DNA of 64,000 nt. Source: Hydrogenophaga sp. Its GTDB lineage: Bacteria; Pseudomonadota; Gammaproteobacteria; Burkholderiales; Burkholderiaceae_C. Shown in pieces: positions 21,334 to 43,721 of the stretch. A program made the translations under genes and the position numbers. The notes beneath the pieces are model-generated. The model made no database searches and was not told the origin of the DNA. It saw nothing but the letters and a program-made list of their open reading frames with translations. The DNA lies in contig NZ_WVZN01000021.1 in NCBI RefSeq assembly GCF_011772445.1, positions 124,001-188,000 on the forward strand, given 5' to 3'. The stretch's first letter is position 1. The number at the start of each line of letters is the position of its first letter.

Positions 21334-21957
21334 ATGCAAAAACATACGTCCATCCGCTTCCGCGTGGCCATGTTGGCGGCAGCGGCCATCCTGGCCGGCT
21401 GCGCCAGCGGCGGTTCGTATCCCCCCGCGCCTCCGGTGGCGTCCAGCGCCGCCTCGTACAACTACCTCATCGGCCCGGGCGACACGCTGTCCATCAGCGT
21501 CTGGCGCAACCCGGAGCTGTCGGCCGTGGTGCCGGTTCGTCCGGACGGCAAGGTCTCGGCCCCGCTGGTGGATGAGCTCGTGGCGCAGGGCAAGACATCG
21601 CAGGAAATCGCCCGCGACGTCGAGAAGGCACTGGGCAAGTACGTGCGTGACCCCGTCGTCACCGTCATCGTCACCAACTTCGTCGGTTCGCACAGCGAGC
21701 AGGTGCGCGTGGTGGGCGAGGCGGTCAAGCCCCAGGCCCTGCCGTTCCGCCACAAGATGACCGTGATGGACGTGCTCATCGCCTCCGGCGGCCTCACGGA
21801 ATACGCCAGCGGCAACAAGGCCACCATCGTGCGCGCCGCCGAAGGCAACAAGCGTTACAGCGTGCGCCTGGACGACCTCGTCAAACGCGGCGACATCTCG
21901 GCCAACGTCGAGATGCTGCCCGGCGACGTGTTGATCATTCCCCAAGGTTGGTTCTGA
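21334..21957 (+). CDS. Polysaccharide export lipoprotein (Wza/EpsA-like, XrtA-system type)
   Basis: 207 residues. The lipoprotein signal ends in the lipobox LAGC with Cys23. A polysaccharide-export domain (NYLIGPGDTLSISVWRNPELS, then VRPDGKVSAPLVDEL) and one SLBB domain (VRVVGEAVKPQALPF to PGDVLIIPQGWF) follow. Such proteins form the periplasmic/outer-membrane channel for exopolysaccharide. Length and gene order match the export protein of XrtA/PEP-CTERM-associated loci. GGAGG lies 8 nt before the ATG at 21334, and the upstream open frame is not used. It is the first gene of a long operon on this strand. Confidence 0.93.
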   Translation: MQKHTSIRFRVAMLAAAAILAGCASGGSYPPAPPVASSAASYNYLIGPGDTLSISVWRNPELSAVVPVRPDGKVSAPLVDELVAQGKTSQEIARDVEKALGKYVRDPVVTVIVTNFVGSHSEQVRVVGEAVKPQALPFRHKMTVMDVLIASGGLTEYASGNKATIVRAAEGNKRYSVRLDDLVKRGDISANVEMLPGDVLIIPQGWF

Positions 21958-22027
21958 TTGAGCCAGCCCGGTTGGTCACCGTCGCCCCGGCGGTGACCGC
22001 GCTCGCTTCGATCGTCCCGGAATCCGC

Positions 22028-23596
22028 ATGCACGAACTGATTCACCAACTCGCCAACGCGCTGCGCGGCATGTGGCTGTACCGCCGCACCGGCGTGGCCG
22101 TGGCCTGGGCCGTGGCCCTGCTGGGCGCCGCCGCCGTGATGTTCATCCCCGACCGCTTCGAGGCGTCGGCCCGGGTGTACGTCGATACGCAATCGATCCT
22201 GCGTCCGCTCATGGCGGGCCTCACCATCCAGCCCGACGTGGAGCAGCAGGTGGCCATGCTGGGCCGCACGCTCATCAGCCGCCCGACCATCGAGAAGCTG
22301 GTGCAGACCGAGGACCTCGGCGTGCCGCTGGCCAACAAGGCCGAGCGCGACGCGATGGTCGGCCGCATCATGGGCAACATCCAGTTGCGTTCCACGGGTC
22401 GCGACAACCTCTACACCATCTCCTACCGCGACGAGAACCCGCAGCTCGCGCTGCACGTGGTCGATGCGCTGATGAAAACCTTCATCGCCTCGCGCGCGGG
22501 GGCCTACACCGCTGACGCGCAGAACGCCCGCAAGTTCATCGAAGAGCAGATCCGGAACTACGAGAGCAAGCTGACCGAGGCCGAAACGCGCCTGAAGGAT
22601 TTCCGCCTGCGCCACATCGAGATGCAGACCCAGGGCGGCATCGACATGGCCGGGCGCATGGCCGAAATCAGCACCGTGCTCAGCCAGGCGAGGCTCGAGC
22701 TGCGCGAGGCCGAGAGCGCGCGCGAGGCGGCGCGCCTTCAACTGGAACAGGCGCGCTCGGCGGCCCGCAACGCCGCCGCCACGGTGCCTGCCCAGACCTT
22801 CGCCACGCCCGAGATCGACGCCCGCATCGACGTGCTGCGCCGCAGCCTCGACGGCCTGCTGCAGCGCTTTACCGAGCAGCACCCGGACGTGCAGAACACG
22901 CGCAAGCTCATCGCCGAACTCGAGCAGCAGAAGGCGCGCGAGGTCGAGGTTCTGCGCAAGCGCGCCCAGCAGGCCGAGGCCAGCGGGCGGCCCATGCCCG
23001 ACGCGAACCCGGCGATGCAGGAGATGTCGCGCACCCTCGCGGCCACCGAGGTGCAGGTGGCCTCGCTGCGCGCCCGGGTGGCCGAGTACGAAGGCCGCGC
23101 GGCCCGCGTGCGCGAGCAGGCCAAGGTGGCGCCGCAGGTGGAGGCCGAGCTGGCCCAGCTCAACCGCGACTACGACGTGCACCGCAAGAACTACGAAGAC
23201 CTCGTGGCCCGCCGCGAAACCGTGGCACTGAGCGACGAGCTGCAGAGCGATTCGCACGTGGCCCAGTTCCGGGTGGTGGAGCCTCCGCAGGTGTCGCGCC
23301 GCCCGGTGGCGCCCAACCGCGTGGTGCTGCTGCCTGGCGTGCTGTTGCTGGCGCTCGGTGCCGGCGTGGCGGTGGCGCTCATGGTGAGCAATCTGCGGCC
23401 GGTGTACTTCGACGCCGCAGGCCTGCGCACCTCGGTCGATCTGCCCTTGCTGGGCGTGGTCACCCAGGTGCGCAACGAGGTGATCCGTCACCGCCAGGGG
23501 CGCAGCATGCTGCGGCTGATCGTCGCGATCGGCGCGCTGGTGCTGCTGTTCGGGCTGGGCATGGTGGCCCTGTCCATTCACCAATCATCCGTGTGA
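22028..23596 (+). CDS. Polysaccharide chain-length determinant (Wzz-like, XrtA-system type)
   Basis: 522 residues. An N-terminal membrane segment (about 20-42) is followed by the Wzz motif region E-A-S-A-R-V-Y-V-D-T-Q-S-I-L. A long periplasmic coiled coil (about 165-400, rich in Glu/Ala/Arg heptads) leads to C-terminal membrane segments near 437-460 and 485-512. It sets polymer length and activates the separate cytoplasmic tyrosine kinase encoded next, so together they equal a split Wzc. The Pro-rich VVEPPQVSRRPVAPNR segment precedes the C-terminal membrane helix, as in other co-polymerases. Confidence 0.93.
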   Translation: MHELIHQLANALRGMWLYRRTGVAVAWAVALLGAAAVMFIPDRFEASARVYVDTQSILRPLMAGLTIQPDVEQQVAMLGRTLISRPTIEKLVQTEDLGVPLANKAERDAMVGRIMGNIQLRSTGRDNLYTISYRDENPQLALHVVDALMKTFIASRAGAYTADAQNARKFIEEQIRNYESKLTEAETRLKDFRLRHIEMQTQGGIDMAGRMAEISTVLSQARLELREAESAREAARLQLEQARSAARNAAATVPAQTFATPEIDARIDVLRRSLDGLLQRFTEQHPDVQNTRKLIAELEQQKAREVEVLRKRAQQAEASGRPMPDANPAMQEMSRTLAATEVQVASLRARVAEYEGRAARVREQAKVAPQVEAELAQLNRDYDVHRKNYEDLVARRETVALSDELQSDSHVAQFRVVEPPQVSRRPVAPNRVVLLPGVLLLALGAGVAVALMVSNLRPVYFDAAGLRTSVDLPLLGVVTQVRNEVIRHRQGRSMLRLIVAIGALVLLFGLGMVALSIHQSSV

Positions 23597-23611
23597 TCGG
23601 GGCGTGAACAG

Positions 23612-24541
23612 ATGGCAAGTCTGATCGAAAAAGCAGCACAACGGCTGGAGCAGCTGAGGCAGGCCGGGGCCGATGTGCCCGACATGCCCGAGGCCGTGCC
23701 GGCATCGGCGGCGGGTGCCGCACGCGCGCCGGTGGCCACGCCGCGGCCGCCTGCTCAGCCCCAGCGCCCACAGAGCAACTCCCGGGTGGTCCAGCTCGAC
23801 CTCGACGCGCTCACCGAGGCCGGCTTCGTGACGCCCAAGGCCCAGCGCTCGCTCACCGCCGAGCAGTTCCGCGTCATCAAGCGCCCGCTGCTGACCAACG
23901 CCATGGGCAAGGGCGCGGCGCCCGTGACCCACGGCAACCGCATCATGGTCACCAGCGCCATGGCCGGCGAGGGCAAGACCTTCACCGCCATCAACCTGGC
24001 GATGAGCATGGCCATGGAGCTCGACCACACGGTGCTGCTGGTCGACGCCGACGTCTCGCGGCCATCGATCATGAAGACGCTGGGTCTGCCCTCGGGGCCG
24101 GGTCTGCTCGACCTGCTGCTGGCCAACCAGACCGAAATGTCCGACGCGCTGCTGCGCACCAACATCGACAAACTCACCCTGCTGCCCAGCGGCACGCCGC
24201 ACCCGCGCGCCACCGAGCTGCTGGCCAGCGACGCCATGAGTGCGCTGGTGGAAGAGATGGGCCGCCGCTACCCTGAGCGCATCATCATTTTCGATTCGCC
24301 GCCGCTGCTGATGACCACCGAGTCGCGCGTGCTGGCCACGCACATGGGGCAGATCGTGATGGTGGTACAGGCCGGCCAGACGCAGCGCGCCCAGGTGCGC
24401 CACGCGCTGGAGACCATCGAGAACTGCCCGATCAAGCTCATGGTGCTCAACCAGGTCCGCGAAGAGGAGCGCAACTCCTACGGCTATGGATACGGCTACG
24501 GCGCCGAACCGGCCGCGGCTGCGGCGGACACCACCACCTGA
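23612..24541 (+). CDS. Tyrosine autokinase of exopolysaccharide locus (BY-kinase, XrtA-system type)
   Basis: 309 residues, cytoplasmic. Walker A is AMAGEGKT near 116-123, Walker A' is LLVDADVSRPS, and Walker B is IIIFDSPPLL. The C-terminus ends in a tyrosine cluster YGYGYGYG (Tyr290, 292, 294, 296), the autophosphorylation site typical of BY-kinases. The N-terminal ~60 residues are Pro/Ala-rich and probably disordered, though they contain the short IEKAAQRLEQLRQAG helix seen in this subfamily. It works with the chain-length protein 15 nt upstream to cycle polymer assembly. Confidence 0.94.
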   Translation: MASLIEKAAQRLEQLRQAGADVPDMPEAVPASAAGAARAPVATPRPPAQPQRPQSNSRVVQLDLDALTEAGFVTPKAQRSLTAEQFRVIKRPLLTNAMGKGAAPVTHGNRIMVTSAMAGEGKTFTAINLAMSMAMELDHTVLLVDADVSRPSIMKTLGLPSGPGLLDLLLANQTEMSDALLRTNIDKLTLLPSGTPHPRATELLASDAMSALVEEMGRRYPERIIIFDSPPLLMTTESRVLATHMGQIVMVVQAGQTQRAQVRHALETIENCPIKLMVLNQVREEERNSYGYGYGYGAEPAAAAADTTT

Positions 24542-24559
24542 GCGGACACGAGACAGACC

Positions 24560-26146
24560 ATGCGCCTGACCACGAGCTCCTCGACCCTGCGCCGGCGGCC
24601 TCTGCGATTGAGTGCCGTGGCCCTGGCGGCCCTGGCGCTGGCGGCGATGGCACGTGCGCAAGTGCCCGCGGAGGTGCCGGCCACCACCGAAGGGCAGGAG
24701 TCCATCACGCCGCAAGGCCCGCCGCCGCGTGTGTGGATCGAGCCGCGTGTGTTCGCGCGCCAGTGGTATTCCGACAACTACCTGCTCACGCCGACCGACC
24801 GCCAGTCCGAGTGGACCACCGAACTGGGCGCATCGGTGATGGCCGTGTTCAACCTGCCGCGCCTGACCGGCAGCGTGGACTACTCGCTCAGTGCCCTGTA
24901 CCAGGCGCGCGGCGTGGGCGATGAGGACCACCTGCAGGGCCTCACCGCCGACCTGCTGCTCGACGCCTGGAACAACACCGCCTTCGTCGAGTTCAACGGC
25001 AACATCGGGCGCAGCCGCATCTCGGCGTTCGACGTGCAGCCGGCCGGGGATTTCGAGCGCCCGAACCTGTCGGAGACCAAGCAGTTCCGCGTGTCGCCGT
25101 ACCTGCGCGGCAGCTTCAACGACGCCGTCGACTACGAACTGCGCTACAGCCGCTTCACCTCCCGCACCGAGGCCGACACCCGCTCCGACATCGACGAGAG
25201 CACGGTCTCGGCCCGCTTGGGCAGCAGCGAAGGGCTGTCGCGCCTGGGCTGGGCGCTGGAGGCGTCGCGCAGCGACTTCGATTACAGCCTGGGCCGCGAG
25301 GTCCGGCTGCAACAGGTGATTGGTCAGTTGAACTACGCGCTGACGCCGACGCTGCTGGTCTTTGCCCAGGGCGGCCGCGAATCCAACGACCTGCTCACGA
25401 CCGACATGGAGTCCTACTCCACCTGGGGCGGCGGCTTCGACTGGCGGCCTACCCAGAACGCACGCATCGCCCTGGGGGCCAACAAGCGCTTCTTCGGCCA
25501 CGACCACAACCTGCAGCTGGAATACCAGATGCGCCGTTCGGTCGTGCGCTTCACGGACTCGCGCGACATCTCCACCAGCCAGTTCGGCCTGGGCGACGAG
25601 AACACCACGCTGTCGGGCCTGCTCGACGCCCTGTACGGCGGCTCCATCCCCGACCCCGTGCAGCGCGCCCAGCGCGTGCAGTCCGAGCTCGACCGCCTGG
25701 GCCTGCCTGGCGACCTCACCGATTTCCCGGGCTACCTCACCTCCTTCGTCACCGAGCAGCGCACCCAGGAACTGTCCTTCGTGATGCTGCTCAGCCGCGG
25801 CGCCCTCACGGCGGCCATCAACCGCACGCGCTCGAACCAGCTCAACACCGGCCTGGCCTCCAGCGACGACTTCGGCCTCGCCGGCGAGATCCTCGAGACG
25901 GGCTGGATGGTGGGCTACGCGCACCGCCTTTCGCCCCGCACGGCGGCCAGCATCATCTACCAGAGCCAGAAGAACGAGGGCGTGGGCACCGACCTGCGCA
26001 ACCGCCTCGATTCGATCACCCTGGGGCTGACCTCGCGCCTGAGCGCCCGCACCACCGGCGTGCTGCTGCTGCGCCGTTCGGCCTTCGACGCAACCTTCCC
26101 CTACCGGGAAACGGCCATCCAGGCCATGGTTTCCCATCGGTTCTGA
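24560..26146 (+). CDS. Outer-membrane beta-barrel protein of XrtA-type exopolysaccharide locus
   Basis: 528 residues. A signal peptide with Ala-rich core ending near AMARAQ is followed by many amphipathic strands (for example VDYSLSALYQARG, VDYELRYSRFTSR, RIALGANKRFFG) and a C-terminal strand ending in Phe (AIQAMVSHRF), the BamA-recognition signature. This fits the PEP-CTERM-associated outer-membrane protein family found at this locus position, whose role is probably polymer secretion or anchoring. No enzymatic motif is seen. It starts 18 nt after the kinase gene. Confidence 0.85.
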   Translation: MRLTTSSSTLRRRPLRLSAVALAALALAAMARAQVPAEVPATTEGQESITPQGPPPRVWIEPRVFARQWYSDNYLLTPTDRQSEWTTELGASVMAVFNLPRLTGSVDYSLSALYQARGVGDEDHLQGLTADLLLDAWNNTAFVEFNGNIGRSRISAFDVQPAGDFERPNLSETKQFRVSPYLRGSFNDAVDYELRYSRFTSRTEADTRSDIDESTVSARLGSSEGLSRLGWALEASRSDFDYSLGREVRLQQVIGQLNYALTPTLLVFAQGGRESNDLLTTDMESYSTWGGGFDWRPTQNARIALGANKRFFGHDHNLQLEYQMRRSVVRFTDSRDISTSQFGLGDENTTLSGLLDALYGGSIPDPVQRAQRVQSELDRLGLPGDLTDFPGYLTSFVTEQRTQELSFVMLLSRGALTAAINRTRSNQLNTGLASSDDFGLAGEILETGWMVGYAHRLSPRTAASIIYQSQKNEGVGTDLRNRLDSITLGLTSRLSARTTGVLLLRRSAFDATFPYRETAIQAMVSHRF

Positions 26147-26149
26147 CCC

Positions 26150-27295
26150 ATGTACGAAGCCTTCTACGGGCTCAAGAGCAAGCCGTTCCAGCTCAACCCC
26201 GACCCGCGTTTCTATTTCTCGGGCAAGCCCCACCGGCGCGCGCGCTCGTACCTCGTGTACGGCGTGATGCGCGGCGAGGGCTTCATCGTCATCACCGGCG
26301 AGGTCGGTGCCGGCAAGACCACCATCGTGCGCGACCTGCTCGACAGCCTGGAAAACGGCTCGGTGGTGGCGGCGCAGCTGGTGAGCACCCAACTGGGCGC
26401 CGAGGACGCGCTCAAGCTCGTGTGCGGCGCCTTCGGCGTGTCGGTCAAGAGCAATGGCAAGGCCGACATGCTCATGGCCCTGGAGGCCTACTTCATCACC
26501 CAGGTTTCGCAAGGCAAGCGCTGCCTGCTCATCGTCGACGAGGCGCAGAACCTGCAGCCGCAGGCCGTGGAAGAGCTGCGCATGCTCTCCAACTTCCAGT
26601 TCGGCGACCAGGCCCTGCTGCAGACCTTCCTGATCGGCCAGCCGGAGTTCCGCGACATCCTGCAGAGCCCGCGCATGCTGCAACTGCGCCAGCGCGTCAC
26701 CGCGCGTTGCCACCTGGGCCCGCTGGACGAGGAAGACACGCGGGGCTACGTGGAGCACCGCCTGAAATGCGCGGGCGCCACCGACAAGCCCAGCTTCGAC
26801 GAGGCCATCTTTGCGCAGCTGCACCACGAGACCGGCGGCATCCCGCGCCGCATCAACCTGCTGATGGACCGGCTGCTGCTGCAGGGCTTCCTGGCCGAGA
26901 CGCCGCACCTCAGCATCGAGGCCTTCAACGATGTCGTCAACGAGGCCCAGGCCGAAGCCGCCGCCTCGCCGACGCGCACCACGCTCGACACCGAGCGCTG
27001 GGGACCCTTGGCCGAGCGGCCTGCGCGCGGCCTGCCGCCCACGCTCACCGACCAGGTCGAGCCGCTGGACCTCGACATCGACCCGAGCACGGTCGAGGGC
27101 ATGTCCGAGCAGCTCACGCAGGTGGCGGCGGAGCAGCTCAGCGCGCGGCTGCTGCGCATCGAGCGCAGCGTGCTGCGGCAGGAACGCATCAGCCTGGAAA
27201 TCCTCAGTTCGCTGCGGCGCATCGTCGCGGGTGCCCGAAAAGGGCGCAACGGCAACGGTGCGTCGAGCGGCCCGTCCGGCGAGACGCCGGGTTGA
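26150..27295 (+). CDS. AAA/ExeA-like ATPase of XrtA-type exopolysaccharide locus
   Basis: 381 residues. The ExeA-like opening YEAFYGLKSKPFQLNPDPRF is followed by Walker A GEVGAGKTT (about 47-55), Walker B LLIVDEAQNL, and sensor region IPRRINLLMDRLLL. The C-terminal ~110 residues are variable with a predicted coiled-coil segment (SEQLTQVAAEQLSARLLRIE). Homologues accompany exosortase A loci and are thought to power or coordinate assembly; the mechanism is unproven. It begins 3 nt after the outer-membrane protein stop. Confidence 0.9.
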   Translation: MYEAFYGLKSKPFQLNPDPRFYFSGKPHRRARSYLVYGVMRGEGFIVITGEVGAGKTTIVRDLLDSLENGSVVAAQLVSTQLGAEDALKLVCGAFGVSVKSNGKADMLMALEAYFITQVSQGKRCLLIVDEAQNLQPQAVEELRMLSNFQFGDQALLQTFLIGQPEFRDILQSPRMLQLRQRVTARCHLGPLDEEDTRGYVEHRLKCAGATDKPSFDEAIFAQLHHETGGIPRRINLLMDRLLLQGFLAETPHLSIEAFNDVVNEAQAEAAASPTRTTLDTERWGPLAERPARGLPPTLTDQVEPLDLDIDPSTVEGMSEQLTQVAAEQLSARLLRIERSVLRQERISLEILSSLRRIVAGARKGRNGNGASSGPSGETPG

Positions 27296-27317
27296 GAGCA
27301 GGTCAGGGAGGGCCCTC

Positions 27318-28184
27318 ATGTTGATGAAAACCGATCGAAAGAACGCGCTGACCATCGACGTGGAAGACTACTTCCAGGTCTCCGCGATGGCGCCTTACAT
27401 CCGCCGCAGCGACTGGGACAGTTGCGAGTGCCGCGTCGAACGCAACGTGGACCGCATCCTCGCCATCCTGGCCGAGGAGGGCGCCCAGGCCACCTTCTTC
27501 ACCCTGGGCTGGGTGGCCGAGCGCTACCCGGCCATGGTGCGCCGCATCGTCGAACAGGGGCATGAACTCGCCAGCCACGGCTACGGCCACCAGCGTGTGA
27601 GCGATCTCGACCCGACCGACTTCCGCGACGACGTGGTGCGCGCCAAGCGCTTGCTCGAAGACACCGGTGGCGTGGAGGTGCTGGGCTACCGCGCGCCCAG
27701 TTTCTCCATTGGCGACGGCAACCTCTGGGCGCTGGACGTGCTGGCCGACACAGGCCACCGCTACAGCTCCAGCATCTACCCTGTGCGCCACGACCACTAC
27801 GGCTCACCCGACGCGCCGCGCTTCATGCACACGGTGCGCGAAGGCCTCATCGAGGTGCCGCCCACCACGCTGCGGGTGTTCAGCCGCAACCTGCCGTCCA
27901 GCGGTGGCGGCTACTTCCGCCTGCTGCCCTACAGCCTGTCGCGCTGGATGATCGAATCGGTGAACCGTCGCGACGGCGAATCCGCCATCTTCTACTTCCA
28001 CCCCTGGGAGATCGACGCCGAGCAGCCCCGCGTGCCCGGCATCGACCTCAAGACACGCTTTCGCCACTACGTGAACATCGAGCGCAACGAGGCCAAGCTG
28101 CGCCGGCTCCTGAAGGACCTGCCCTGGGGCCGCATGGACCAGATCTTCCTGGGTCGCCGGCAGGCAGAGGTGGCGCTTGCCTGA
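27318..28184 (+). CDS. Polysaccharide deacetylase, XrtA-system type
   Basis: 288 residues. The NodB-type catalytic motifs are visible: ALTIDVEDYFQ (general base and metal Asp), ASHGYGHQ (metal His pair), YRAPSFSI (motif 3), and FYFHPWEID near the end. It removes N-acetyl groups from the nascent or exported polymer. No signal peptide is present, as is normal for this subfamily. GGGAGGG sits 5 nt before the ATG at 27318. The last 8 bases overlap the FemAB-like gene. Confidence 0.92.
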   Translation: MLMKTDRKNALTIDVEDYFQVSAMAPYIRRSDWDSCECRVERNVDRILAILAEEGAQATFFTLGWVAERYPAMVRRIVEQGHELASHGYGHQRVSDLDPTDFRDDVVRAKRLLEDTGGVEVLGYRAPSFSIGDGNLWALDVLADTGHRYSSSIYPVRHDHYGSPDAPRFMHTVREGLIEVPPTTLRVFSRNLPSSGGGYFRLLPYSLSRWMIESVNRRDGESAIFYFHPWEIDAEQPRVPGIDLKTRFRHYVNIERNEAKLRRLLKDLPWGRMDQIFLGRRQAEVALA

Positions 28185-29232
28185 GGCGACGGCGCTGACG
28201 ATCCACCGCCTCGACGGCAGCCGCGCCGACGAGGTGGCGCGCTGGGACGCCTTCGTCACGGCTTGTGCCGAGGCCACCTTCTTCCACCGCGCGGGTTGGG
28301 AACGCATCACCCGCGAGGTGCTGCGCCACGACACGCACTTTCTCTACGCCGAGTCGAATGGCCGGACCCGCGGCGTGCTGCCGCTGGCTCGCGTGCACAG
28401 CCGCCTGTTCGGCCACTCGCTGTGCAGCCTGCCGTTCGCCGCCTATGGGGGCGTGGCCGCGATTGACGACGAAGCCCGCGCCGCGCTGGAGGCTGAGGCC
28501 CAGGCCATCGCCCAGCGCCTGGGCGTGGAGCACCTGGAGTTGCGCCACATCGAGCGGCGCCACCCCGACTGGCCCGCCCAGGACCAGCTCTACGTCACCT
28601 TCCGCAAGCCCATCGAGCCCACGGAAGAGGCCAACATGCAGGCCATTCCGCGCAAGCAGCGCGCCATGGTGCGCAAGGGCATCAAGCTCGGGCTGGTCTC
28701 GCACATCGACCCCGGTGTGGACCGCTTCTTCGCGCTCTACGCCAGCAACGTGCACCGCCACGGCACGCCCGCGCTCTCGCGCCGCTACTTCCAGGCCCTG
28801 CGCGACACCTTCGGCGACGACTGCGAGGTGCTCACCGTCACCTCTGCCGAGGGGCAGCCGCTGACCAGCGTGATGAGCTTCTACTTCCGCGACGAGGTGC
28901 TGCCCACCTTCGCCGGCGACGACCCGGCCGCGCGCGACCTGGCCGCCAACGACTTCAAGTACTGGGAGCTCATGCGCCGCGCCTGCGCGCGTGGCCTCAA
29001 GGTCTTCGACTACGGCCGCAGCAAGGTCGGCACCGGCCCGTACGCCTTCAAGCGCAACTGGGGCTTCGAGCCCACGCCGCTGCACTACGAGTACCGCCTG
29101 TACAAGCGTGAGGGCATCCCGCAGAACAACCCGGCGAACCCGAAGTACCGGCTGATGATCGAGGCGTGGCGCCGGCTGCCGCTGCCGGTGGCCAATTGGC
29201 TCGGCCCGCACATCGTCAGAAGTCTGGGATGA
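28177..29232 (+). CDS. FemAB-like GNAT-fold protein of XrtA-type locus
   Basis: 351 residues with a double GNAT fold. Motifs are EATFFHRAGWERITREVL, the central KQRAMVRKGIKLGL, and FDYGRSKVGTGPYAFKRNWGFEP at the end, which matches the PEP-CTERM-associated FemAB family. FemAB proteins transfer aminoacyl groups; here the role may be modification of the polysaccharide or a peptide linkage (inference). The start is probably TTG at 28177, with AGAGG 6 nt upstream, overlapping the deacetylase stop; no ATG gives the conserved N-terminus. Confidence 0.85.
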   Translation: MPEATALTIHRLDGSRADEVARWDAFVTACAEATFFHRAGWERITREVLRHDTHFLYAESNGRTRGVLPLARVHSRLFGHSLCSLPFAAYGGVAAIDDEARAALEAEAQAIAQRLGVEHLELRHIERRHPDWPAQDQLYVTFRKPIEPTEEANMQAIPRKQRAMVRKGIKLGLVSHIDPGVDRFFALYASNVHRHGTPALSRRYFQALRDTFGDDCEVLTVTSAEGQPLTSVMSFYFRDEVLPTFAGDDPAARDLAANDFKYWELMRRACARGLKVFDYGRSKVGTGPYAFKRNWGFEPTPLHYEYRLYKREGIPQNNPANPKYRLMIEAWRRLPLPVANWLGPHIVRSLG

Positions 29233-29242
29233 GGGCTGGGCG

Positions 29243-30454: not shown

Positions 30455-30455
30455 T

Positions 30456-33499: not shown

Positions 33500-33513
33500 T
33501 CGCCCGACGCCCC

Positions 33514-35912: not shown

Positions 35913-37494
35913 TTCCTGGGTGCTCGCGAGCGCCGTGCTGATCGCGGTGCTGGCGCTGCTGTGGTGGCAGTCGCCGCGCGGCGGGGCCTTCTGGTGGAGC
36001 GACGCCCCGCGCCACGCGCTCAACGCCGCCTTCGTGACCGACCTGCTGCGCGATCTCCCCTGGCAGGACCCGACGGGCTACGCCTATCGTTACTACGCGC
36101 AATACCCCGCGCTCACCATCCTGTTCTACCCGCCGCTGCTGTACCTGCTGACCGCGCCGTTCTACGCGCTGTTCGGCGTCTCGCACGAGGTGGCGCTGGG
36201 GGTGGTCTTCCTTCATTACTTCGCCTTCGGCCTGGGTTGCTGGCGCCTGGCACGCTGCTGGCTCGATCCGCTGCCGGCGCTCGCCTTCGCGCTGCTCATG
36301 GTGCTGCTGCCGGAGATCGCGCTGTGGGGCCGACAGGTGATGACCGAGGTGCCGGCCTACGCCTTCCTGGTGTGGAGCGCGGTGGCTTTCGTCGAGCACC
36401 GGCGCAGCGGGCGCATCGGCCTGCTGTACCTGGCCGCGGCCCTGCTGGTGCTGGCCATGACCACCAAGATCACGGTGGGTTTCGTGGGCCTGGTGTACCT
36501 GTTCGTGCTGGCGCGGGAACAGGGCCCGGGTCTGCTGCGCAGCCGCCACCACTGGTCCATCGCCGCGCTCACGCTCATTGGCCTTGCCCCGGTCATCGTC
36601 ATGACCCTGAAATTCGGGCAGGCGAACGTGCAGTCCCTCTCCGGTGTGGCCGACGCCGTGGCCCCGCGCTGGAGCGTCGAGGGCTGGCTGTGGTACCTGA
36701 AGCAGTTGCCTGCGCAGATCGGCTGGCCCCTGCTGGTGGCGGCGGGATGGGGCGCCTGGCACGCCTGGCGCCAGCGCGCCGCGCTGGCCTGGTGGGGCCT
36801 GTGGCTGAGCTGGTTCGTGGTGGCTTACGTGTTTTTTTCGCTGATCGACCTGAAGGAGGCGCGCCACAGCGTCTTCCTCCTCATGCCCGTGGCCTTCGTC
36901 GCCGTCTGGGCTGTGCAGGACGCGCTGCCGCATCTGGCGGGCCACGGGGCCCTGGCGGCGCTGGTGCTGTCCACTGGCGCCATCACCCTGTGGTGGCGCC
37001 CGGTCCCCTACGTGGACGGCTACGCGCGTGTGGTGGACCAGATCGCTCGCCTGGCGCCGCGCCACAGCGTGGTGCTGTTCTCGGGCTACCGCGATGGCTC
37101 CTTCATCTTCAACCTGCGCGCGCGCGAGGACCGACGCGACCTGAGCGTGATGCGTGCCGACAAGATCCTGCTGCGCGTGGCCGTGCGGCGCGAACTCGGC
37201 GTCGAGGAAAAATCCCTGGACGAGGCGGAACTCGGCCAACTGATCAACGATCAAGGCGTGCACTATGTCGTGATGCAACCCGGCTTCTGGTCCGACCTGG
37301 AGGCCATGCGCCGGTTCGAGCACCTCATGGCCGGTCCGCAGTTCGAAGAGGTGGCGCGCATCCCTACGCCCGCCAATCACCGCGCCCACGAGACCGAACT
37401 CGTGATCCTGCGCAACAAGGGCCCCGTGAACCCGAACCCCCGGCCGCTGGAAATCGAACTCAAGATGATCGACCGCACGATCACCGTCAACTGA
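35899..37494 (+). CDS. ArnT/PMT-like (GT39/GT83) membrane glycosyltransferase
   Basis: 531 residues with about 10-11 membrane helices. The first periplasmic loop has the acidic signature FWWSDAPRHALNA, and YYAQYPALTILFYPPLLY and QVMTEVPAYAFLVW are typical of polyprenyl-phosphate-sugar-dependent GT-C enzymes. The C-terminal soluble part (from about 370) is periplasmic. It probably decorates the polymer or lipid carrier on the outer face of the inner membrane. It is not an exosortase: the Cys/Arg/His catalytic pattern of EpsH proteins is absent and the topology differs. Confidence 0.85.
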   Translation: MKSRSSWVLASAVLIAVLALLWWQSPRGGAFWWSDAPRHALNAAFVTDLLRDLPWQDPTGYAYRYYAQYPALTILFYPPLLYLLTAPFYALFGVSHEVALGVVFLHYFAFGLGCWRLARCWLDPLPALAFALLMVLLPEIALWGRQVMTEVPAYAFLVWSAVAFVEHRRSGRIGLLYLAAALLVLAMTTKITVGFVGLVYLFVLAREQGPGLLRSRHHWSIAALTLIGLAPVIVMTLKFGQANVQSLSGVADAVAPRWSVEGWLWYLKQLPAQIGWPLLVAAGWGAWHAWRQRAALAWWGLWLSWFVVAYVFFSLIDLKEARHSVFLLMPVAFVAVWAVQDALPHLAGHGALAALVLSTGAITLWWRPVPYVDGYARVVDQIARLAPRHSVVLFSGYRDGSFIFNLRAREDRRDLSVMRADKILLRVAVRRELGVEEKSLDEAELGQLINDQGVHYVVMQPGFWSDLEAMRRFEHLMAGPQFEEVARIPTPANHRAHETELVILRNKGPVNPNPRPLEIELKMIDRTITVN

Positions 37495-37505
37495 AGCACC
37501 ACCGC

Positions 37506-37697
37506 ATGGAAGCCCTCATCTTCATGTTCGACGTGGCCTGCATGACCTACCTGTGCTGGCGCGTCTACAAGCTCGACCCCAAACACCCCAGGCCCGATGA
37601 CCTGGGCTATTTCCAGTACCGTACCGCGTGCACGACGCCCAGGCCCCGGCCGAACCGCCGCAGGGCAAAGGCAATGGACCGCGCAAGGGGCGTTCCG
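37506..37697 (+). other. Small membrane-protein-like reading frame fused in frame ahead of the ligase
   Basis: From the ATG at 37506 the frame encodes a hydrophobic helix (ALIFMFDVACMTYLCWRVY) and a KLDPKHPRPDDLGYFQYR segment, then a Pro/Arg-rich stretch that reads on into the ligase without a stop. It looks like the start of a separate one-helix protein whose stop has been lost, or a genuine 64-residue extension. No good ribosome binding site is seen upstream. Confidence 0.4.
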
Positions 37698-39044
37698 GTG
37701 CGTGACCTGTTCTTCGCCCTGGCCATGCTGGCCCTGGTGCCGCTGGCCTTCCTGCGCCCCTTCAACGCCTACATGCTCTGGGGCTGGACGTCCGCGATGA
37801 TCCCCACGGGCTTTCTGTTCGGCTTCATGGCCAGCGCGCGCGTGAACTTCATCTTTGCCGGTATCACGCTGTTGCTGGTGGTGCTGCGGCGCGTGGACTG
37901 GAGCCAGTACCGCTTCAACTGGGCGGTCGCGCTCTACCTGGTCTTCCTGCTGCACGCCACCATCGCCTGGCTCACGGGCTACGGTGGCAACGGCAACAAC
38001 GCCAAGTACTACGACATCCTCATGAAGGGGCTGATCTTCAGCATGCTGATGCCGATGTTCGTGCAGTCGCGCATGCACATGCACATGATGCTGCTGGTGG
38101 TGGTCTTCGGCCTGGGCCTGCACGGCATGATCGAAGGGCTCAAGACCGTGGTCTCGGGCGGCTCGCACAACATGTATGGCCCGGCCGGCAGCATGCTGTA
38201 CGACCGCAACCACCTGTCCACGGCGCTGGCCATGGTGCTGCCCATCGCCTACTACCTCTACCTGCACTCCGTGCACCGCTTCGCGCGCTGGGGTTTCCTG
38301 GCGCTGTTCGTGATCATCGTGCTGGCCATCATGGGCGGCGGTTCGCGTGGTGGCTTCGTGGCGCTGGCGGTGGTGGCCTTCTGGCTCATCCTCACCTCGC
38401 GCCACCGCTGGCGCACGCTGTTCATCGTGGCCGCCCTGGGCCTGCTGCTGTGGCAGTTCGTGCCCGATTCGGTGGTGAGCCGCCTGGAGACCATCGGAGA
38501 GGCGAACGAGGACGACTCCTTCATGGGCCGCGTGCACGCCTGGAAGATCAGCTCGGCACTGGCGCTGGAGCACCCCTTCTTCGGCGGAGGCTTTCACGCC
38601 GTGCAGGTGCAGTACGTGTGGGAGCAGTTCAAGACCGCCCCCAGCCTGCTGGACTTCCTCAACATGCCGCCGCCCGAGTTCGTGCTGGCCAAGGCCGCCC
38701 ACAGCGTGTACTTCGAAGTCATGGGCGACCTGGGCTTCCTCGGCCTGTTCCTCTACCTCCTGATCTTCTCCATGCCGCTGCTGGCCCGCTTCTCGGTCAA
38801 GCGCATGGCGACCCGCCTGGGCCCCGACTTCGTCTGGGCGCGTGACCTGGGTGACATGCTGATGCTCGCTGTCATGGCGTACCTCGTGGGCGGCGCTGCC
38901 GTGAGCGTGGCCTACCTCGAGGTGGCCTACCTCATGGTCATGCTGATGGCCGTGCTGCAGGTGCACCTGCGCCAGCGCCTGAGCGAACATGAGCGGGCGC
39001 AGGCCCGCGCCAGTCGCGCCACGTACGTGGGGGGCGCCGCGTGA
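37698..39044 (+). CDS. O-antigen ligase/polymerase-like protein (Wzy_C, exosortase-locus type)
   Basis: 448 residues from GTG at 37698, which has AAGGGG 7 nt upstream and gives the family's VRDLFFALAMLALVPLAF opening; ATG at 37506 would give 512 residues. About 10-11 membrane helices flank a large periplasmic loop (about 285-335) containing FMGRVHAWKISSALALEHP and GGGFHAV, the Wzy/WaaL signature. It matches the putative O-glycosylation ligase family seen with exosortase A. It polymerises repeat units or transfers glycan to an acceptor in the periplasm. Confidence 0.85.
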   Translation: MRDLFFALAMLALVPLAFLRPFNAYMLWGWTSAMIPTGFLFGFMASARVNFIFAGITLLLVVLRRVDWSQYRFNWAVALYLVFLLHATIAWLTGYGGNGNNAKYYDILMKGLIFSMLMPMFVQSRMHMHMMLLVVVFGLGLHGMIEGLKTVVSGGSHNMYGPAGSMLYDRNHLSTALAMVLPIAYYLYLHSVHRFARWGFLALFVIIVLAIMGGGSRGGFVALAVVAFWLILTSRHRWRTLFIVAALGLLLWQFVPDSVVSRLETIGEANEDDSFMGRVHAWKISSALALEHPFFGGGFHAVQVQYVWEQFKTAPSLLDFLNMPPPEFVLAKAAHSVYFEVMGDLGFLGLFLYLLIFSMPLLARFSVKRMATRLGPDFVWARDLGDMLMLAVMAYLVGGAAVSVAYLEVAYLMVMLMAVLQVHLRQRLSEHERAQARASRATYVGGAA

Positions 39045-40021
39045 GCCTTGCCCTGCGGGAGCCGACGGTCTCGGTGATCATGCCGGCGTGGAACGCCATG
39101 CGCTACATCCACGCCGCCATCGACAGCGTGCTCTCGCAGTCGTACGAGGACCTGGAACTCGTCGTCATCAACGACGGCTCCAGCGACGGTGACTACGCCG
39201 CGCTGGAGCGCATCGACCCGCGCGTGCGCGTGATCGAGGGCGCGCGCGGTGGCGTCTCGCGCGCGCGCAACCTCGGCATGGCGCAGGCGCGCGGGCGTTA
39301 CTTCGCCTTCATCGACGCCGACGATCTGTGGGTGCCGGGCAAGTTGCAGATGCAGGTGGAGTACCTGGAGGCCCACCCGGACCTCGGCATCGTGTTCGGT
39401 GAGATCCATCGCTGGCGACCCGGCCCCGATGGCACCTGGCCCGACCCGTCCGCGCACTTTCCCGATGCGCAGACCCTGGCGCGGCCCAACCCGGACTGGC
39501 ACGGCTGGATGTACACGCAGATCCTGATGGGCTGCACCCTGGGCATGATCACGCCGCTGATGCGCCGCGAGGTGTACCAGGCGGCCGGCGGCTTCGACGA
39601 AAGCATGGAGCGCGGCGAGGACTACGATTTCTGGCTGCGTTGCTCGCGCCACGCGCGCATCCAGGGCTTCTCGGCCGTGATGGCGATCTACCGCATCCAC
39701 CCCGCCAGCGCGATGCACAAGATGATCGAACGCAACCACCTGGCCGAGCTGCTGGAGCGCGCCCGCGAACGCTGGGGCCTGAGCGACCCCGACGGGCACC
39801 GGCTGCCCCGGCTGCACTACCGCTACCGCTTAGGCCGCGCGCATTTCGACCATGGCTACACCCACTACTGGTCGGGCGACCCCGCCGTCGCGGCGCGCGA
39901 GTTCGCCCAAGCCTTCCGTCGCGGCTGCCTGATGCACCGGGCGGCTGCGTTCTGGATGCTGAGCCAGCTCAAGCGCCTGCGCCGCGTCACCGCGGCGCCC
40001 AGCCCCATCGAGCGCAGCTGA
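39041..40021 (+). CDS. Glycosyltransferase family 2
   Basis: 326 residues, GT-A fold. VSVIMPAWNAMRYIHAAIDSVLSQ binds the nucleotide, VINDGSSDG follows, and FIDADDLW carries the DxD metal motif. Later come YQAAGGFDESMERGEDYDFWLR (ED/QxxRW-like region) and a His-rich C-terminal tail. No membrane helices are present. The start is GTG in a GTGA overlap with the ligase. It is the last forward-strand gene of the main exopolysaccharide operon. Confidence 0.92.
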   Translation: MSLALREPTVSVIMPAWNAMRYIHAAIDSVLSQSYEDLELVVINDGSSDGDYAALERIDPRVRVIEGARGGVSRARNLGMAQARGRYFAFIDADDLWVPGKLQMQVEYLEAHPDLGIVFGEIHRWRPGPDGTWPDPSAHFPDAQTLARPNPDWHGWMYTQILMGCTLGMITPLMRREVYQAAGGFDESMERGEDYDFWLRCSRHARIQGFSAVMAIYRIHPASAMHKMIERNHLAELLERARERWGLSDPDGHRLPRLHYRYRLGRAHFDHGYTHYWSGDPAVAAREFAQAFRRGCLMHRAAAFWMLSQLKRLRRVTAAPSPIERS

Positions 40022-40046
40022 GCGCCTGGGGAGCGGCGAGCGGCGC

Positions 40047-41486
40047 TCAGACGCGGCTCTGGCGCCAGCGCACATACAGCGTGCGCAGCTCCTCGTACAC
40101 CGGCAGGCCGAACAGCCGCAGCAGCAGCGCCCAGCCGATCGCCGCCGGCAGGCCCAGCGCCAACAGCATGGCCCAGGCCGGCAGGGGCGGCAGCGCCCAT
40201 TTCAGCGCGAGCATGCTGATCAGCAGCGTGAGCGTCAGACCCACGACCGGCGCGGCCATGGCCAGCCAGCGCCGGGGCGCGATGCCCAGGTAGCGGTACT
40301 GGATCCACAGGCCCAAGGGCAGGGTGAGCACCTGCGCCGCCACCATCGCCTCCGCAAAGCTCTGCAGGGTTCCGTCGAAGAGCAGGACGATGAACACGGC
40401 CTTGAGACCCAGCAACAGCAGCATGGGCAGGCCGGCCACGTAGGGTTTGCCGATGCCCATGAGCGCCGCCGGCACGAAGGAGAACAGCACCCCCAGGCCG
40501 GCCGAGATGCACAGCCACGGCACGGCCACGGCACTGGGCAGCCACTTGGCGCCATAGAGCAGGTAGATCACCTCGTTGGCCAGCAGCGCCGTCATGGCCA
40601 TGGCCGGCAGCAGCAGCGTGGCCAGGTAGGAGGTGACGCGGCAGACCTCGGCCGCCACGTCGCCCTGGCCGTGGTGCAGGCGCGCCATGTAGGGCAGGGC
40701 GAAGTAGTTCACCGCCGGCATCACGCCGCTGCTGGCGATGTTGATGGTGGAGTTGGCCTTGCTGAAGAAACCCACGTTGGCGGGCGTGCTGAGTCGGCCC
40801 AGCGCGATGTCGGGGATGGCGTTGTCGATCGCCGTCAGGGCCGAGGTGATCATGGCGCCGACGCCGAAGTTGGCCACGCGGCCCCAGTTGTGGAACCCCG
40901 GGATCCAGGGCGTCTTCGTGGTCGACAGCAGGCGCACGGCGGTGATGTGGGTGGCGATGTTGATCAGGCTGGCCCAGGCCATGGTCATGTGGCCAAAGCC
41001 CTTGAGCGCGAGCACGATGGACACGGTGAAATAGACGCTGAGCGCGATCATCCCGGCCTTGGCGGTGCGCACCACCTCCATGTTGCGCACCAGGATGGCG
41101 CCGGGCAGGGCCCCGAAGGGGATGAGCACGAAGCCCATGGCCAGCACCTTCACCACGTTTTCCACGCGCGGCTCGCCAAAGAACCCCGACCACAGCGGCG
41201 CGCTCAGGAACATGACCAGCGCCATGGTCCATGAGGTGCACATCACCACGCCCAGGGCGGAGCGCAGGGTGTCCTCGCTCAGTTCCTTCTGCCGCTTGAT
41301 GAAGGCGGTGACGCCGAAGTCCCGGAACAGGTGGGCCACGGCCACCAGCACGGCGCTCATGGAATAGACGCCGATGTCGTCCGGGTCCAGCAGACGGGCC
41401 AGCACCATGCTCAGCACCAGGTGCCCGGCGACTTCCGCGTTGCTGAAGATCAGCTGGAAACCGAATTTCTTGCGGGTGGAGTTCAC
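40047..41486 (-). CDS. Polysaccharide flippase (Wzx/MviN-like, oligosaccharide flippase family)
   Basis: 479 residues with about 12 membrane helices and no soluble domain. The N-terminal segment FGFQLIFSNAEVAGHLVLSMVLARLLDPDDIGVYSM and the PANVGFFSKANSTINIASSGVMPAV block are typical of lipopolysaccharide-biosynthesis flippases. It moves the lipid-linked repeat unit across the inner membrane before polymerisation. The start is GTG at 41486 with AAGG 6 nt upstream. It converges on the GT2 gene and is the only reverse-strand gene in the island, so it has its own promoter in the 176-bp gap shared with the cupin-like gene. Confidence 0.9.
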   Translation of the reverse strand: MNSTRKKFGFQLIFSNAEVAGHLVLSMVLARLLDPDDIGVYSMSAVLVAVAHLFRDFGVTAFIKRQKELSEDTLRSALGVVMCTSWTMALVMFLSAPLWSGFFGEPRVENVVKVLAMGFVLIPFGALPGAILVRNMEVVRTAKAGMIALSVYFTVSIVLALKGFGHMTMAWASLINIATHITAVRLLSTTKTPWIPGFHNWGRVANFGVGAMITSALTAIDNAIPDIALGRLSTPANVGFFSKANSTINIASSGVMPAVNYFALPYMARLHHGQGDVAAEVCRVTSYLATLLLPAMAMTALLANEVIYLLYGAKWLPSAVAVPWLCISAGLGVLFSFVPAALMGIGKPYVAGLPMLLLLGLKAVFIVLLFDGTLQSFAEAMVAAQVLTLPLGLWIQYRYLGIAPRRWLAMAAPVVGLTLTLLISMLALKWALPPLPAWAMLLALGLPAAIGWALLLRLFGLPVYEELRTLYVRWRQSRV

Positions 41487-41662
41487 GCGCTGCCTTGGAA
41501 GGATGCGAAACCCGGCATTCTGCGGGAACCCGGGGCGGTACCCCTTGGCAGCCACCGGGGTGGCGAGCAGAATGCCGCAAAACACGCGTCCACAGAGGCG
41601 CGGATGCGACGGAGCCAGGGCTTGGAGGGGAATGTGGCCATCGGGCCGCAGGAGGATTCGGC

Positions 41663-42526
41663 ATGCTGCGCTGTTTCGATGACAGTGTCGACGCGTCACT
41701 CGTCGACCGCGGATCGTTCGTCTGCGGGCACAAGCTGATGGGGCATCCGGCCCTGTCGCTGGAGAGCCTGTGCCGCGTGCTGCCGCGGCTGCCGCCAGGG
41801 CAGGTGATGTACGCCACGCGGCGCCTGGCCACCGAAGACAACTTCGAGAAGACCTTCAAGCAGCGGCCGCTGGACCGCTCGGTCGCGGAAACCATCGAGA
41901 CCATCCGCGAGTCCGACAGCTACATCATGGTCAACTCGCCGCAGGTGGACGAGAGCTTCGCGGAGATCTACCAGGACCTCATCCACGACGTGCAGTCCCT
42001 CATGTGGGAACGCGGTGTGGGCGACAAGGCCATCTCGCCCAAGCTCTACCTCTTCATCGCATCGCCGAACAGCGTCACGCCGTTCCACATCGACCGCTAT
42101 TCCACCTTCCTGATGCAGTTTCGCGGCAGCAAGTGGGTCACCGTGTCCGACCCCTGGGATGAGCGTGTGGTGACCTCGCCCGACCGCGAGAACTACGTCT
42201 CCTACGTGAGCACGCAGCTGCCCTGGACGCCCGACAAGGACGCCATCAGCACGCGCTACTGGTTCGAGCCCGGGCAGGCGCTGCACATCCCGTTCGTGTC
42301 CGGCCACCACGTGCACAACGGGCCCGACGACGTGTCGATCTCCATGTCCATCATCTTCAACACACCGCAGACCGTGGACTGGCGCGACGCGCTCAACTTC
42401 AACCAGCGGGCGCGCAAGGTGCTGCGGCGCGTGGGCATGGGCCCGGGCCCGGTGGGCGTGAACCCCGGCCGCGACGCGCTGAAAGCCAAAGCCTGGCGCA
42501 CCTGGGCTGGCTGGCGTGGATACTGA
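41663..42526 (+). CDS. Cupin/JmjC-like Fe(II)-dependent oxygenase-type protein
   Basis: 287 residues. A double-stranded beta-helix core is suggested by V-T-P-F-H-I-D-R-Y-S-T-F, whose HxD would bind metal, and the later distal His in SGHHVHNGP. The intervening FRGSKWVTVSDPW strand fits cupin_8/JmjC-like hydroxylases. No 2-oxoglutarate residue can be assigned with confidence. GGAGG lies 9 nt before the ATG at 41663. It sits between the flippase and an acyltransferase in the exopolysaccharide island and may modify a sugar or a surface protein (inference). The exact function is unknown. Confidence 0.75.
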   Translation: MLRCFDDSVDASLVDRGSFVCGHKLMGHPALSLESLCRVLPRLPPGQVMYATRRLATEDNFEKTFKQRPLDRSVAETIETIRESDSYIMVNSPQVDESFAEIYQDLIHDVQSLMWERGVGDKAISPKLYLFIASPNSVTPFHIDRYSTFLMQFRGSKWVTVSDPWDERVVTSPDRENYVSYVSTQLPWTPDKDAISTRYWFEPGQALHIPFVSGHHVHNGPDDVSISMSIIFNTPQTVDWRDALNFNQRARKVLRRVGMGPGPVGVNPGRDALKAKAWRTWAGWRGY

Positions 42527-42530
42527 GCGC

Positions 42531-43691
42531 ATGTCTGCCGCCAGCCCACCCGCCGCCGCCACCACGCTCTCCCCATCCCTGTCGATCTGGCTCGACCTGT
42601 GCCGCGTGCTGGCCGCGCTCGCGGTCTACGTGGGCCATTCGGTGGTGCTGGGCCTGGCGCCCGAGGCGCTGTCGCTCACCTGGCACCGCTCGGCCGATGA
42701 CGCGGTGATCGCCTTTTTCGTCATCTCGGGCTTCGTCATCGCCTACAGCACGCTTTCGCGCCATGGCAGCGCCGGGCACTACGCGCTGGCGCGCCTCTCG
42801 CGCATTTACTCCGTGGCGATTCCCGCCGTGTTGCTGGCGCTGCTGCTGGACTCCATCGGCCTGCGCATCGGGCCCGAGGCCTACGCGGGCTATGCCTGGC
42901 AGTACCCCCACGCGGCGCTGGTGCCGCCGTACCACTGGCTGTTCCTGGGTGAGGGCTGGTTCGGTTCCTGGCAGCCCTTCAGCATGGAGCCGTACTGGTC
43001 GCTGGCCTACGAGGTCTGGTACTACGCGCTGTTCGGCGTGTTCGTGTACGCGCGGGGCTGGTGGCGCTGGCCCTTGCTCTTGGTGGTGCTGGTCTTCATG
43101 GGGCCGGCCGTGCTGATGCTGCTGCCGGCGTGGTGCCTGGGGGTGTTCCTCTGCCGCCACCTGGGCGCGCTGCGGCCGGGCCGCTGGCCGGCGCGCACGC
43201 TGATGCTGCTGTGCGCGCTGGCCTACGCGGCCTTCTTCCTGTCGGGCGCGCGCGCGGCCACCGACGAGGCCTCGCGTGCCTTGTACGCGGCAATCGCGGC
43301 CCGGGCGCCGTTTCCCTTCGAGCCCGGCTCCACCGTGCATGTGCTCTCCGACTACGTGACGGCCCTGCTGTTCGCCGGCTTCGTCATCGGCTGCGCAGGG
43401 GCCGACTGGGGTTTCTCCGCGCGCGCGGGGCGGATCGTCCGCTGGCTGGCTGACCGCACCTTCAGCTTCTACCTCATCCACTTCAGCCTGCTGGTGCTGG
43501 CGCGCGCGGCGGGTGTGACCGCGTCGGGCTGGGCCGGCTACGCCGCGCTGCTGGCCGGTGTGCTGCTGGCCACCTGGGCGCTGGGGCAGATCGGCGAGCA
43601 GCGCCGCGAGGCGTACCGCGCGGCGTTCCGCTGGCTGGGGCAGCTCGCCCGCCGGGGCCTGGGGACGGTGGTGCCGCGCTTGCGGTCCTGA
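42531..43691 (+). CDS. Acyltransferase 3 family membrane protein (OafA/YrhL-like)
   Basis: 386 residues with about 10 membrane helices. The family's signature first helix is [19 protein letters not shown], with the conserved His, followed by [15 protein letters not shown], and [13 protein letters not shown] carries the Glu/Tyr region. Such enzymes O-acetylate surface polysaccharides, fitting its place at the end of the island. The ATG at 42531 is 4 nt after the cupin-like gene; an in-frame GTG at 42516 would overlap that gene. Confidence 0.9.
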
Positions 43692-43715
43692 GCACGCGGT
43701 CCGACAGCGGGGCGC

Positions 43716-43721
43716 GACAAT
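43716..43721 (+). promoter_or_regulatory. Candidate -10 element of uvrC, very short leader
   Basis: GACAAT ends 7 nt before the uvrC ATG in a 37-bp intergenic gap with no Shine-Dalgarno sequence. The layout repeats that of dusA and ygiD. Confidence 0.35.

Follow-up and report, generated by a model that had tools for sequence, protein, structure and literature searches.

The closest described relative of the locus analyzed here is the XrtA/PEP-CTERM exopolysaccharide system (Haft 2006, PMC1569441), which has also been studied as a floc system in Aquincola and Zoogloea (PMC9850573). Our locus occupies positions 21334-43691 of a 64,000-nucleotide stretch of Hydrogenophaga sp. DNA (the window, positions 124001-188000 of contig NZ_WVZN01000021.1). 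It shares with the described system eleven polymer-locus genes that score over the cut-offs of their families, the usual gene order, and an unlinked EpsB2. The difference is on the protein-sorting side: the source genome has no XrtA over cut-off, no PrsK or PrsT among the candidates scored, and no sorting signal of the PEP-G/A/S type, and the genes prsK-prsR-prsT are missing beside epsB2. We consider it very likely that this is an XrtA-type exopolysaccharide locus minus xrtA (a gene fused to epsI in relatives), whose sorting side has been shed as a module while the polymer side was kept, and that a separate XrtB system remains. This is loss, rather than a split system. Sequence evidence points to it: the genes are absent, and absent together; loss recurs on the locus tree; the sorting signals fall into classes; and the polymer genes are under purifying selection.

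A second described system that matters here is the methanolan-type eps system of XrtB, an enzyme that we take to be the counterpart of EpsH of Methylobacillus sp. 12S. The source genome shares with it XrtB, type B EpsI, and EpsD, EpsE, EpsF, and EpsG, all over cut-off on contig C12. (We use G### for genomes of our samples, L### for loci, and C# for contigs; G000 is the source genome, the window lies on its C18, and L002 and L190 are loci on its C12 and C22.) This system differs from the locus in the window in being on a separate contig, and in having proteins with PEP-E instead of PEP-G/A/S signals.

Incomplete combinations of these parts have been reported before. The accessible text of Haft 2006 mentions one genome with PEP-CTERM proteins and without EpsH, which is the reverse case (PMC1569441). 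For 'Ferrovum' group 2 (two strains), the authors suggest that the PEP-CTERM export system has possibly been lost, and all strains could still make exopolysaccharide; the accessible part of that paper describes no XrtA-type locus that was retained after excision of xrtA (PMC4886054). In the open-access literature, we found no paper on an exosortase in Hydrogenophaga or on XrtB, and no description of an XrtA-less and PrsKRT-less derivative in which the polymer locus is intact. The parts are already known; the derivative, as far as that literature goes, is apparently undescribed.

The source genome is a draft of 4.65 Mb in 51 contigs, 97.2% complete. Genome-wide, the general exosortase model TIGR02602 matches a single gene, on C12 and outside the window. 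No XrtA over cut-off is found genome-wide using TIGR03109; the best match is that same C12 gene, with 131.7-131.9 bits against a cut-off of 208. Under TIGR03113 the gene scores 393.9 bits (cut-off 275), which makes it XrtB. An exosortase hidden in the window is ruled out, as the whole-genome searches yield the C12 gene only. EpsI type B adjoins XrtB, and EpsE, EpsF, EpsG, and EpsD lie upstream, all of them over cut-off. Together they form a methanolan-like eps locus (L002, 9138-19372), with a GDP-mannose dehydratase and a GDP-fucose-synthase-like gene downstream; it is a second, separate polymer locus of the source genome. PEP-CTERM matches over cut-off number six genome-wide, four on C12 (no more than about 30 kb from XrtB) and two on C14, and none of the six is on C18. 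All six carry the XrtB-associated signal PEP-E; a substrate of the XrtA-associated class, as defined in this analysis, is not found among them.

An earlier note, made from the letters of the window alone, had claimed that the locus contains neither an exosortase nor a PEP-CTERM protein, and both claims hold. It had left two options, polymer machinery uncoupled from sorting or an exosortase A elsewhere in the genome, and had proposed a genome-wide search for exosortase A and PEP-CTERM signals. That search found no split XrtA system, and the second option is not supported: the sole exosortase found is XrtB, and its six PEP-CTERM proteins are all PEP-E. One amendment is needed, in that the source genome is not sorting-free, as a separate XrtB system is present.

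The genes of the locus were called using NCBIfam models with curated cut-offs, and we give for each gene the score and the cut-off in bits. The genes, and the site at which xrtA-epsI usually sits, are as follows.

21334..21957, plus strand: XrtA-type polysaccharide export lipoprotein (TIGR03027 233.9 bits, cut-off 180), with a ribosome-binding-site-like sequence at start 21334
22028..23596, plus strand: chain-length determinant (TIGR03007 489.4 bits, cut-off 278.85)
23612..24541, plus strand: tyrosine autokinase (TIGR03018 282.4 bits, cut-off 230.65)
24560..26146, plus strand: outer-membrane protein (TIGR03016 242.1 bits, cut-off 90.85)
26150..27295, plus strand: XrtA-associated ATPase (TIGR03015 389.2 bits, cut-off 324.5)
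27318..28184, plus strand: polysaccharide deacetylase (TIGR03006 439.3 bits, cut-off 276.2); 27318 is the likely start, scanned from 26931
28237..29232, plus strand: FemAB-family protein (TIGR03019 512.8 bits, cut-off 260.35), start uncertain, open frame from 28177
29243..30454, plus strand: glycosyltransferase TIGR03087 (527.7 bits, cut-off 316.65)
30455..30455, no strand: usual xrtA-epsI site, here 1 base between the TIGR03087 and TIGR03108 genes
30456..32357, plus strand: amidotransferase TIGR03108 (1024.5 bits, cut-off 816.9)
32354..33499, plus strand: glycosyltransferase TIGR03088 (486.2 bits, cut-off 409.05)
33529..34692, plus strand: glycosyltransferase, best match TIGR04063, below cut-off (125 bits, cut-off 442.05)
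34689..35912, plus strand: glycosyltransferase, TuaC-like, below cut-off (182.2 bits, cut-off 550)
35899..37494, plus strand: membrane glycosyltransferase-like protein (PMT_2 49.4 bits, cut-off 26.1)
37503..39044, plus strand: Wzy_C protein, probable polymerase, start uncertain (TIGR03097 316.4 bits, cut-off 188.1; Wzy_C 79.2 bits, cut-off 31.7)
39041..40021, plus strand: family-2-type glycosyltransferase, below cut-off for every curated model
40047..41486, minus strand: Wzx-type flippase (Polysacc_synt_3 168.3 bits, cut-off 23)
41663..42526, plus strand: cupin-like protein (Cupin_8 37.6 bits, cut-off 27.4)
42516..43691, plus strand: acyltransferase (Acyl_transf_3 83 bits, cut-off 31)

Eleven of these genes exceed the cut-offs of NCBIfam models of the XrtA system and stand in the usual order, so that the XrtA-type locus of the earlier note is recovered in both order and coordinates. 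The nearest named relatives of the FemAB protein are in Hydrogenophaga intermedia (95%) and H. borbori (92%). The TIGR03097 product, annotated as 'O-glycosylation ligase, exosortase A system-associated', has a Wzy_C domain and is kept without XrtA; its retention speaks more for a polymerase than for an enzyme whose substrates are PEP-CTERM proteins. The locus is flanked at its 5′ end by genes for an aromatic aminotransferase and a dioxygenase, and at its 3′ end by a UvrC gene within 43558-45846. Minus-strand open reading frames at 37377-38990 and 41696-42565 were rejected as genes, having no NCBIfam family and overlapping plus-strand genes that do have one. A second, distant FemAB-like gene is found at G000:C6:171266-172174 (62.6 bits, below cut-off).

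What do relatives have at the site that is reduced here to one base? The earlier note had also proposed this comparison, for which xrtA was sought using a profile built from the related loci themselves. Among 80 named relatives of the locus, 67 have the xrtA-epsI gene and 13 do not. Five of the 13 end at a contig edge (L029, L048, L050, L061, L069), and we dropped those as losses since the sequence runs out there. The other eight do not end at an edge: L017 (H. intermedia), L018 (H. borbori), L019, L027, L035, L038, L064, and L072 (A. delafieldii 2AN). In six of the eight XrtA-bearing loci of the genus, xrtA has the TIGR03087 glycosyltransferase on one side and the amidotransferase on the other; in G114 and G239 it follows TIGR03087, and no adjoining amidotransferase was seen within the stretch examined. 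Outside the genus, it often adjoins FemAB or TIGR03088. In the ten Hydrogenophaga loci that lack xrtA, that of the window among them, 1-3 bases separate the TIGR03087 and TIGR03108 genes, as opposed to 1614 and 1591 bases in the two loci with xrtA that were measured; the gap is 162 bases in L072 and 998 in L035. Because the gap is so short in the XrtA-less loci, we conclude that the deletion of xrtA in the genus is a clean one, with no remnant between the flanking genes.

To place the deletion in the genus, we used a sample of 67 Hydrogenophaga genomes, taking FemAB over cut-off as the marker of the locus, counting PEP-CTERM matches at an E-value of 0.02, and accepting exosortase matches at 0.001. 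The locus is found in 18 of the 67, and the other 17 stretches, upon inspection, also show it. XrtA is present in eight of these 18 (G114, G208, G214, G221, G232, G233, G239, G259) and absent from ten (G000, G202, G204, G207, G222, G224, G227, G241, G243, G250). XrtA is also carried by a ninth genome, G237, which is 79% complete and yields no FemAB match. PEP-CTERM matches in the XrtA-bearing genomes number 18 in G114, 10 in G208, 11 in G214, 20 in G221, 7 in G232, 1 in G233, 19 in G239, 6 in G259, and 4 in G237. Four of the ten XrtA-less genomes have an XrtB-like match, with 6 (G000), 4 (G204), 7 (G207), and 6 (G222) PEP-CTERM matches; the other six have no exosortase match and no PEP-CTERM match at those thresholds.

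In a family sample of 200 genomes, FemAB is over cut-off in 55 and XrtA in 50, all 50 being within the 55. The five with FemAB and without XrtA are G000, G040 (74% complete), G066, G100, and G197. We dropped G100 as a loss with 18 PEP-CTERM matches, as its contig stops 73 bases past FemAB. Loss of xrtA is thus common in Hydrogenophaga (10/18) and rare in the rest of the family sample.

The loss extends beyond xrtA. For PrsK and PrsT, the best 14 and 11 first-look candidates were scored in each genome. In the source genome, no PrsK (TIGR02916) over cut-off is found among the best 14 of 72 candidates (the top one reaches 92.9 bits against a cut-off of 300), and no PrsT (TIGR02917) match at an E-value of 1e-60 among the best 11 of 27. 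EpsB2 (TIGR03013), presumably the initiating transferase of the polymer given its family, is kept at 502 bits (cut-off 393.35) on C22, unlinked to the locus in the window. Across the 18 genomes the pattern repeats: PrsK over cut-off and PrsT are each found in 7/8 XrtA-bearing versus 0/10 XrtA-less genomes, and EpsB2 in 7/8 and 10/10. The sole exception each time is G233. That genome (2.2 Mb, locus L111) has kept xrtA and the locus, with a single PEP-CTERM match; none of PrsK, PrsT, and EpsB2 reaches cut-off in it, and it may be an erosion intermediate. Beyond the 18, PrsK and PrsT are found in G237; PrsK, PrsT, and EpsB2 in G244 (59% complete); and PrsT in G252. A PrsT-like TPR protein about 1 kb from a PEP-CTERM match was seen in three genomes (G114:C1:1784666-1787365, G239:C77:421827-424529, G252:C166:1693-4404); in G114 and in G239 it is a second copy.

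The junction at epsB2 was detailed in the source genome alone, against G208. There, G208 has epsB2-prsK-prsR-prsT, then a 205-residue protein, a homolog of a gene present in G000, and a counterpart of the HprK-related kinase of G000. In the latter genome (L190, 5732-9071), epsB2 is followed directly by the equivalents of the last two of these genes, a 221-residue protein and the HprK-related kinase, with no prsK-prsR-prsT between. This is a second deletion that mirrors that of xrtA and spares EpsB2. The earlier note had seen no PrsK/PrsR pair in the locus; for PrsK the absence now extends to the genome, within the 14 of 72 candidates scored, and PrsR (TIGR02915) is absent beside epsB2, no genome-wide search with its model having been made. 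The option of polymer machinery uncoupled from XrtA sorting is accordingly supported: xrtA is out of its usual site, PrsK and PrsT are missing, EpsB2 is kept, and six sister genomes have the locus with no exosortase or PEP-CTERM match.

How many times did this happen? On a tree of seven concatenated locus proteins (midpoint root), the XrtA-less Hydrogenophaga loci form two clades, each with 100/100 support and each containing five diverged loci. The clade with the window is sister to G208, and the other to G114/G239/G214/G221. Forcing all XrtA-less loci into a single clade is rejected by the approximately unbiased test (p-AU 1e-77), for groups that were picked after the first tree was seen. 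The locus tree thus points to two separate losses of xrtA in the genus. With contig-end loci excluded, we count four changes at the xrtA site, namely the two Hydrogenophaga clades, L072 (A. delafieldii 2AN), and L035, the absence in the last two being known at the locus only. A count of eight from the first tree is too high, as it takes L029, L048, L061, and L069 (contig ends) as lacking xrtA.

The signals on the cargo proteins separate along the same lines. We read the tails of the PEP-CTERM matches and scored the residue after PEP. In genomes with only an XrtB-like enzyme, it is E in 26 of 26 tails (G000 6, G207 7, G204 4, G222 6, G254 3). Where XrtA is the only exosortase matched, it is E in 0 of 25 (G208 10, G214 8, G233 1, G259 2, G237 4), where G214 contributes 8 distinct tails of 11 matches (two identical, two unreadable) and G259 2 tails of 6 matches. 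In G114, which has both enzymes, six PEP-E tails lie no more than 50 kb from XrtB and ten non-E tails lie elsewhere (one unreadable, one not included); G221, also with both, has 7 tails with E and 13 without. A prediction written before retrieval was right for all 17 readable tails of G239 (two were unreadable), for 4/4 of G237, and for 3/3 of G254. For G232 only a mixture was predicted, and we observe 4 E, 2 Q, and 1 A; given the two Q tails, PEP-[E/Q] is the better formula for the XrtB class. Common ancestry among the cargo proteins could account for part of the division into classes. A sigma-54-like site, matching at least 10 of 12 consensus positions, lies upstream of 7/11 XrtA-class and 0/12 XrtB-class genes, in a scan where shuffled sequences reach up to 10, site positions vary, and some upstream stretches are short; a tie between these sites and XrtA-class genes is suggestive only.

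Could the XrtB on C12 have taken over the role of XrtA, leaving the locus coupled to sorting by means of another enzyme? The source genome does have XrtB with six PEP-CTERM proteins, and an XrtB-like match is found in 4/10 XrtA-less locus genomes, the other three being 76, 79, and 97% identical to the XrtB of the source. We nevertheless find a takeover unlikely. The remaining six of the ten carry the locus with no exosortase match at all. Four genomes (G114, G221, G232, G239) have a second exosortase besides XrtA, 74% identical to the source XrtB in G114 and 73% in G232, and in those four, PEP-E or PEP-Q signals coexist with PEP-G/A-type ones. And the signals of the source genome are PEP-E without exception.

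Several observations weigh against loss of the sorting module with retention of the polymer, and it is best to consider them together with the remaining alternatives. Seven genus genomes have PEP-CTERM matches and no clear exosortase: G225 (1 match, 67% complete), G244 (4, 59%), G246 (6, 94%), G248 (1, 80%), G249 (1, 100%), G252 (7, 92%), and G253 (1, 99%), five of the seven being below 95% completeness. G244, G246, and G252 have no exosortase match at all, despite their four, six, and seven PEP-CTERM matches. In G246, the five tails read, of six matches, are of the XrtA class; its XrtA gene may be absent from the assembly, or recently lost. In other genera, G066 and G197 (loci L200 and L201) lack xrtA in a locus ordered FemAB-TIGR03088-amidotransferase, and have at least 15 and at least 16 PEP-CTERM matches (40 candidates scored per genome), which may be of either class, with other exosortase matches in both genomes. 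Besides, a locus tree cannot tell transfer of an XrtA-less locus between species from loss in each lineage.

A further alternative sees in the locus a decaying relic that is disappearing now that its partner is lost. We estimated the ratio of nonsynonymous to synonymous substitution rates (dN/dS) by simple counting for 13 locus genes, against H. intermedia (G207) and H. borbori (G202). It is 0.03-0.19 in the first comparison and 0.04-0.33 in the second; both partners are inside the loss clade, and therefore the polymer genes have been under selection since the loss. For the neighboring aminotransferase it is 0.06 in both comparisons, lower than for 12 of the 13 polymer genes against H. borbori. 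The estimates come from XrtA-less pairs alone and may be compatible with some relaxation of constraint, and purifying selection is no proof that polymer is produced today. G233 suggests, too, that partial erosion may happen. On the other side, besides the low ratios over all 13 genes, the unlinked EpsB2 is retained in every XrtA-less genome of the ten, and each loss clade has diversified into five loci. A relic seems to us quite unlikely.

More unlikely still is an xrtA that exists but sits in an assembly gap or an unassembled replicon. The source genome is only a draft, and in 3/50 XrtA-bearing family genomes xrtA and FemAB are on different contigs, such that separated or split arrangements do exist. 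Against a gap, the usual site is contiguous, xrtA is likewise lacking from G204, a relative from the window's loss clade whose genome is a single contig, and PrsK, PrsT, and PEP-G signals are missing as well. That the XrtA-less locus is ancestral, and xrtA was inserted later in relatives, finds some room in the gene order around xrtA, which differs between loci, but is barely credible given that both genus clades are nested among xrtA-bearing loci (on a midpoint root only) and how prevalent xrtA is among related loci.

If the sorting module was lost and the polymer retained, as we propose, the locus would work as follows, going by the families of its genes. The unlinked EpsB2 would start the repeat unit, to be built by the glycosyltransferases; movement and polymerization of the units would fall to the flippase and the Wzy-like protein, and export of the polymer to the chain-length protein, the kinase, the outer-membrane protein, and the export lipoprotein. 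The module shed would comprise XrtA, the PrsK/PrsR/PrsT genes beside epsB2, and the PEP-CTERM proteins with PEP-G/A/S signals. Sorting would now be confined to the XrtB system, which lies on another contig and comes with an eps locus and six PEP-E proteins of its own. The polymer is probably still made, and without XrtA cargo it may leave the cell as soluble slime or be retained in some other way. In the accessible text on Aquincola tertiaricarbonis, an rpoN1 mutant still produces polymer and releases most of it into the medium, and an overexpressed PEP-CTERM protein, PepA, shifts polymer back to the bound form (PMC9850573). XrtA-less Hydrogenophaga looks like a natural, permanent version of the rpoN1 state, with polymer release presumed.

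Somewhat beyond this, we lean towards a general formulation: XrtA reads PEP-[G/A/S/V/T]xxAL and XrtB reads PEP-[E/Q]TxAML, and XrtA, PrsKRT, and the PEP-G proteins are a discardable module whose repeated removal has left behind a polymer that is autonomous. If this holds, the 'XrtA-associated' TIGR03097, FemAB, and ATPase would serve the polymer, and not protein sorting. The link between exosortase and polymer has so far been mainly one of association, and sorting-side and polymer-side genes labeled 'XrtA-associated' have been hard to separate. Natural deletions sort them: what is kept after XrtA loss probably belongs to the polymer, and what has gone with XrtA (PrsK, PrsT, PEP-G proteins) to sorting. 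The XrtA-versus-XrtB signal code is testable, and close strains with and without the system allow us to ask what PEP-CTERM proteins do to the polymer. The clean joint loss suggests that the polymer needs no protein-sorting partner.

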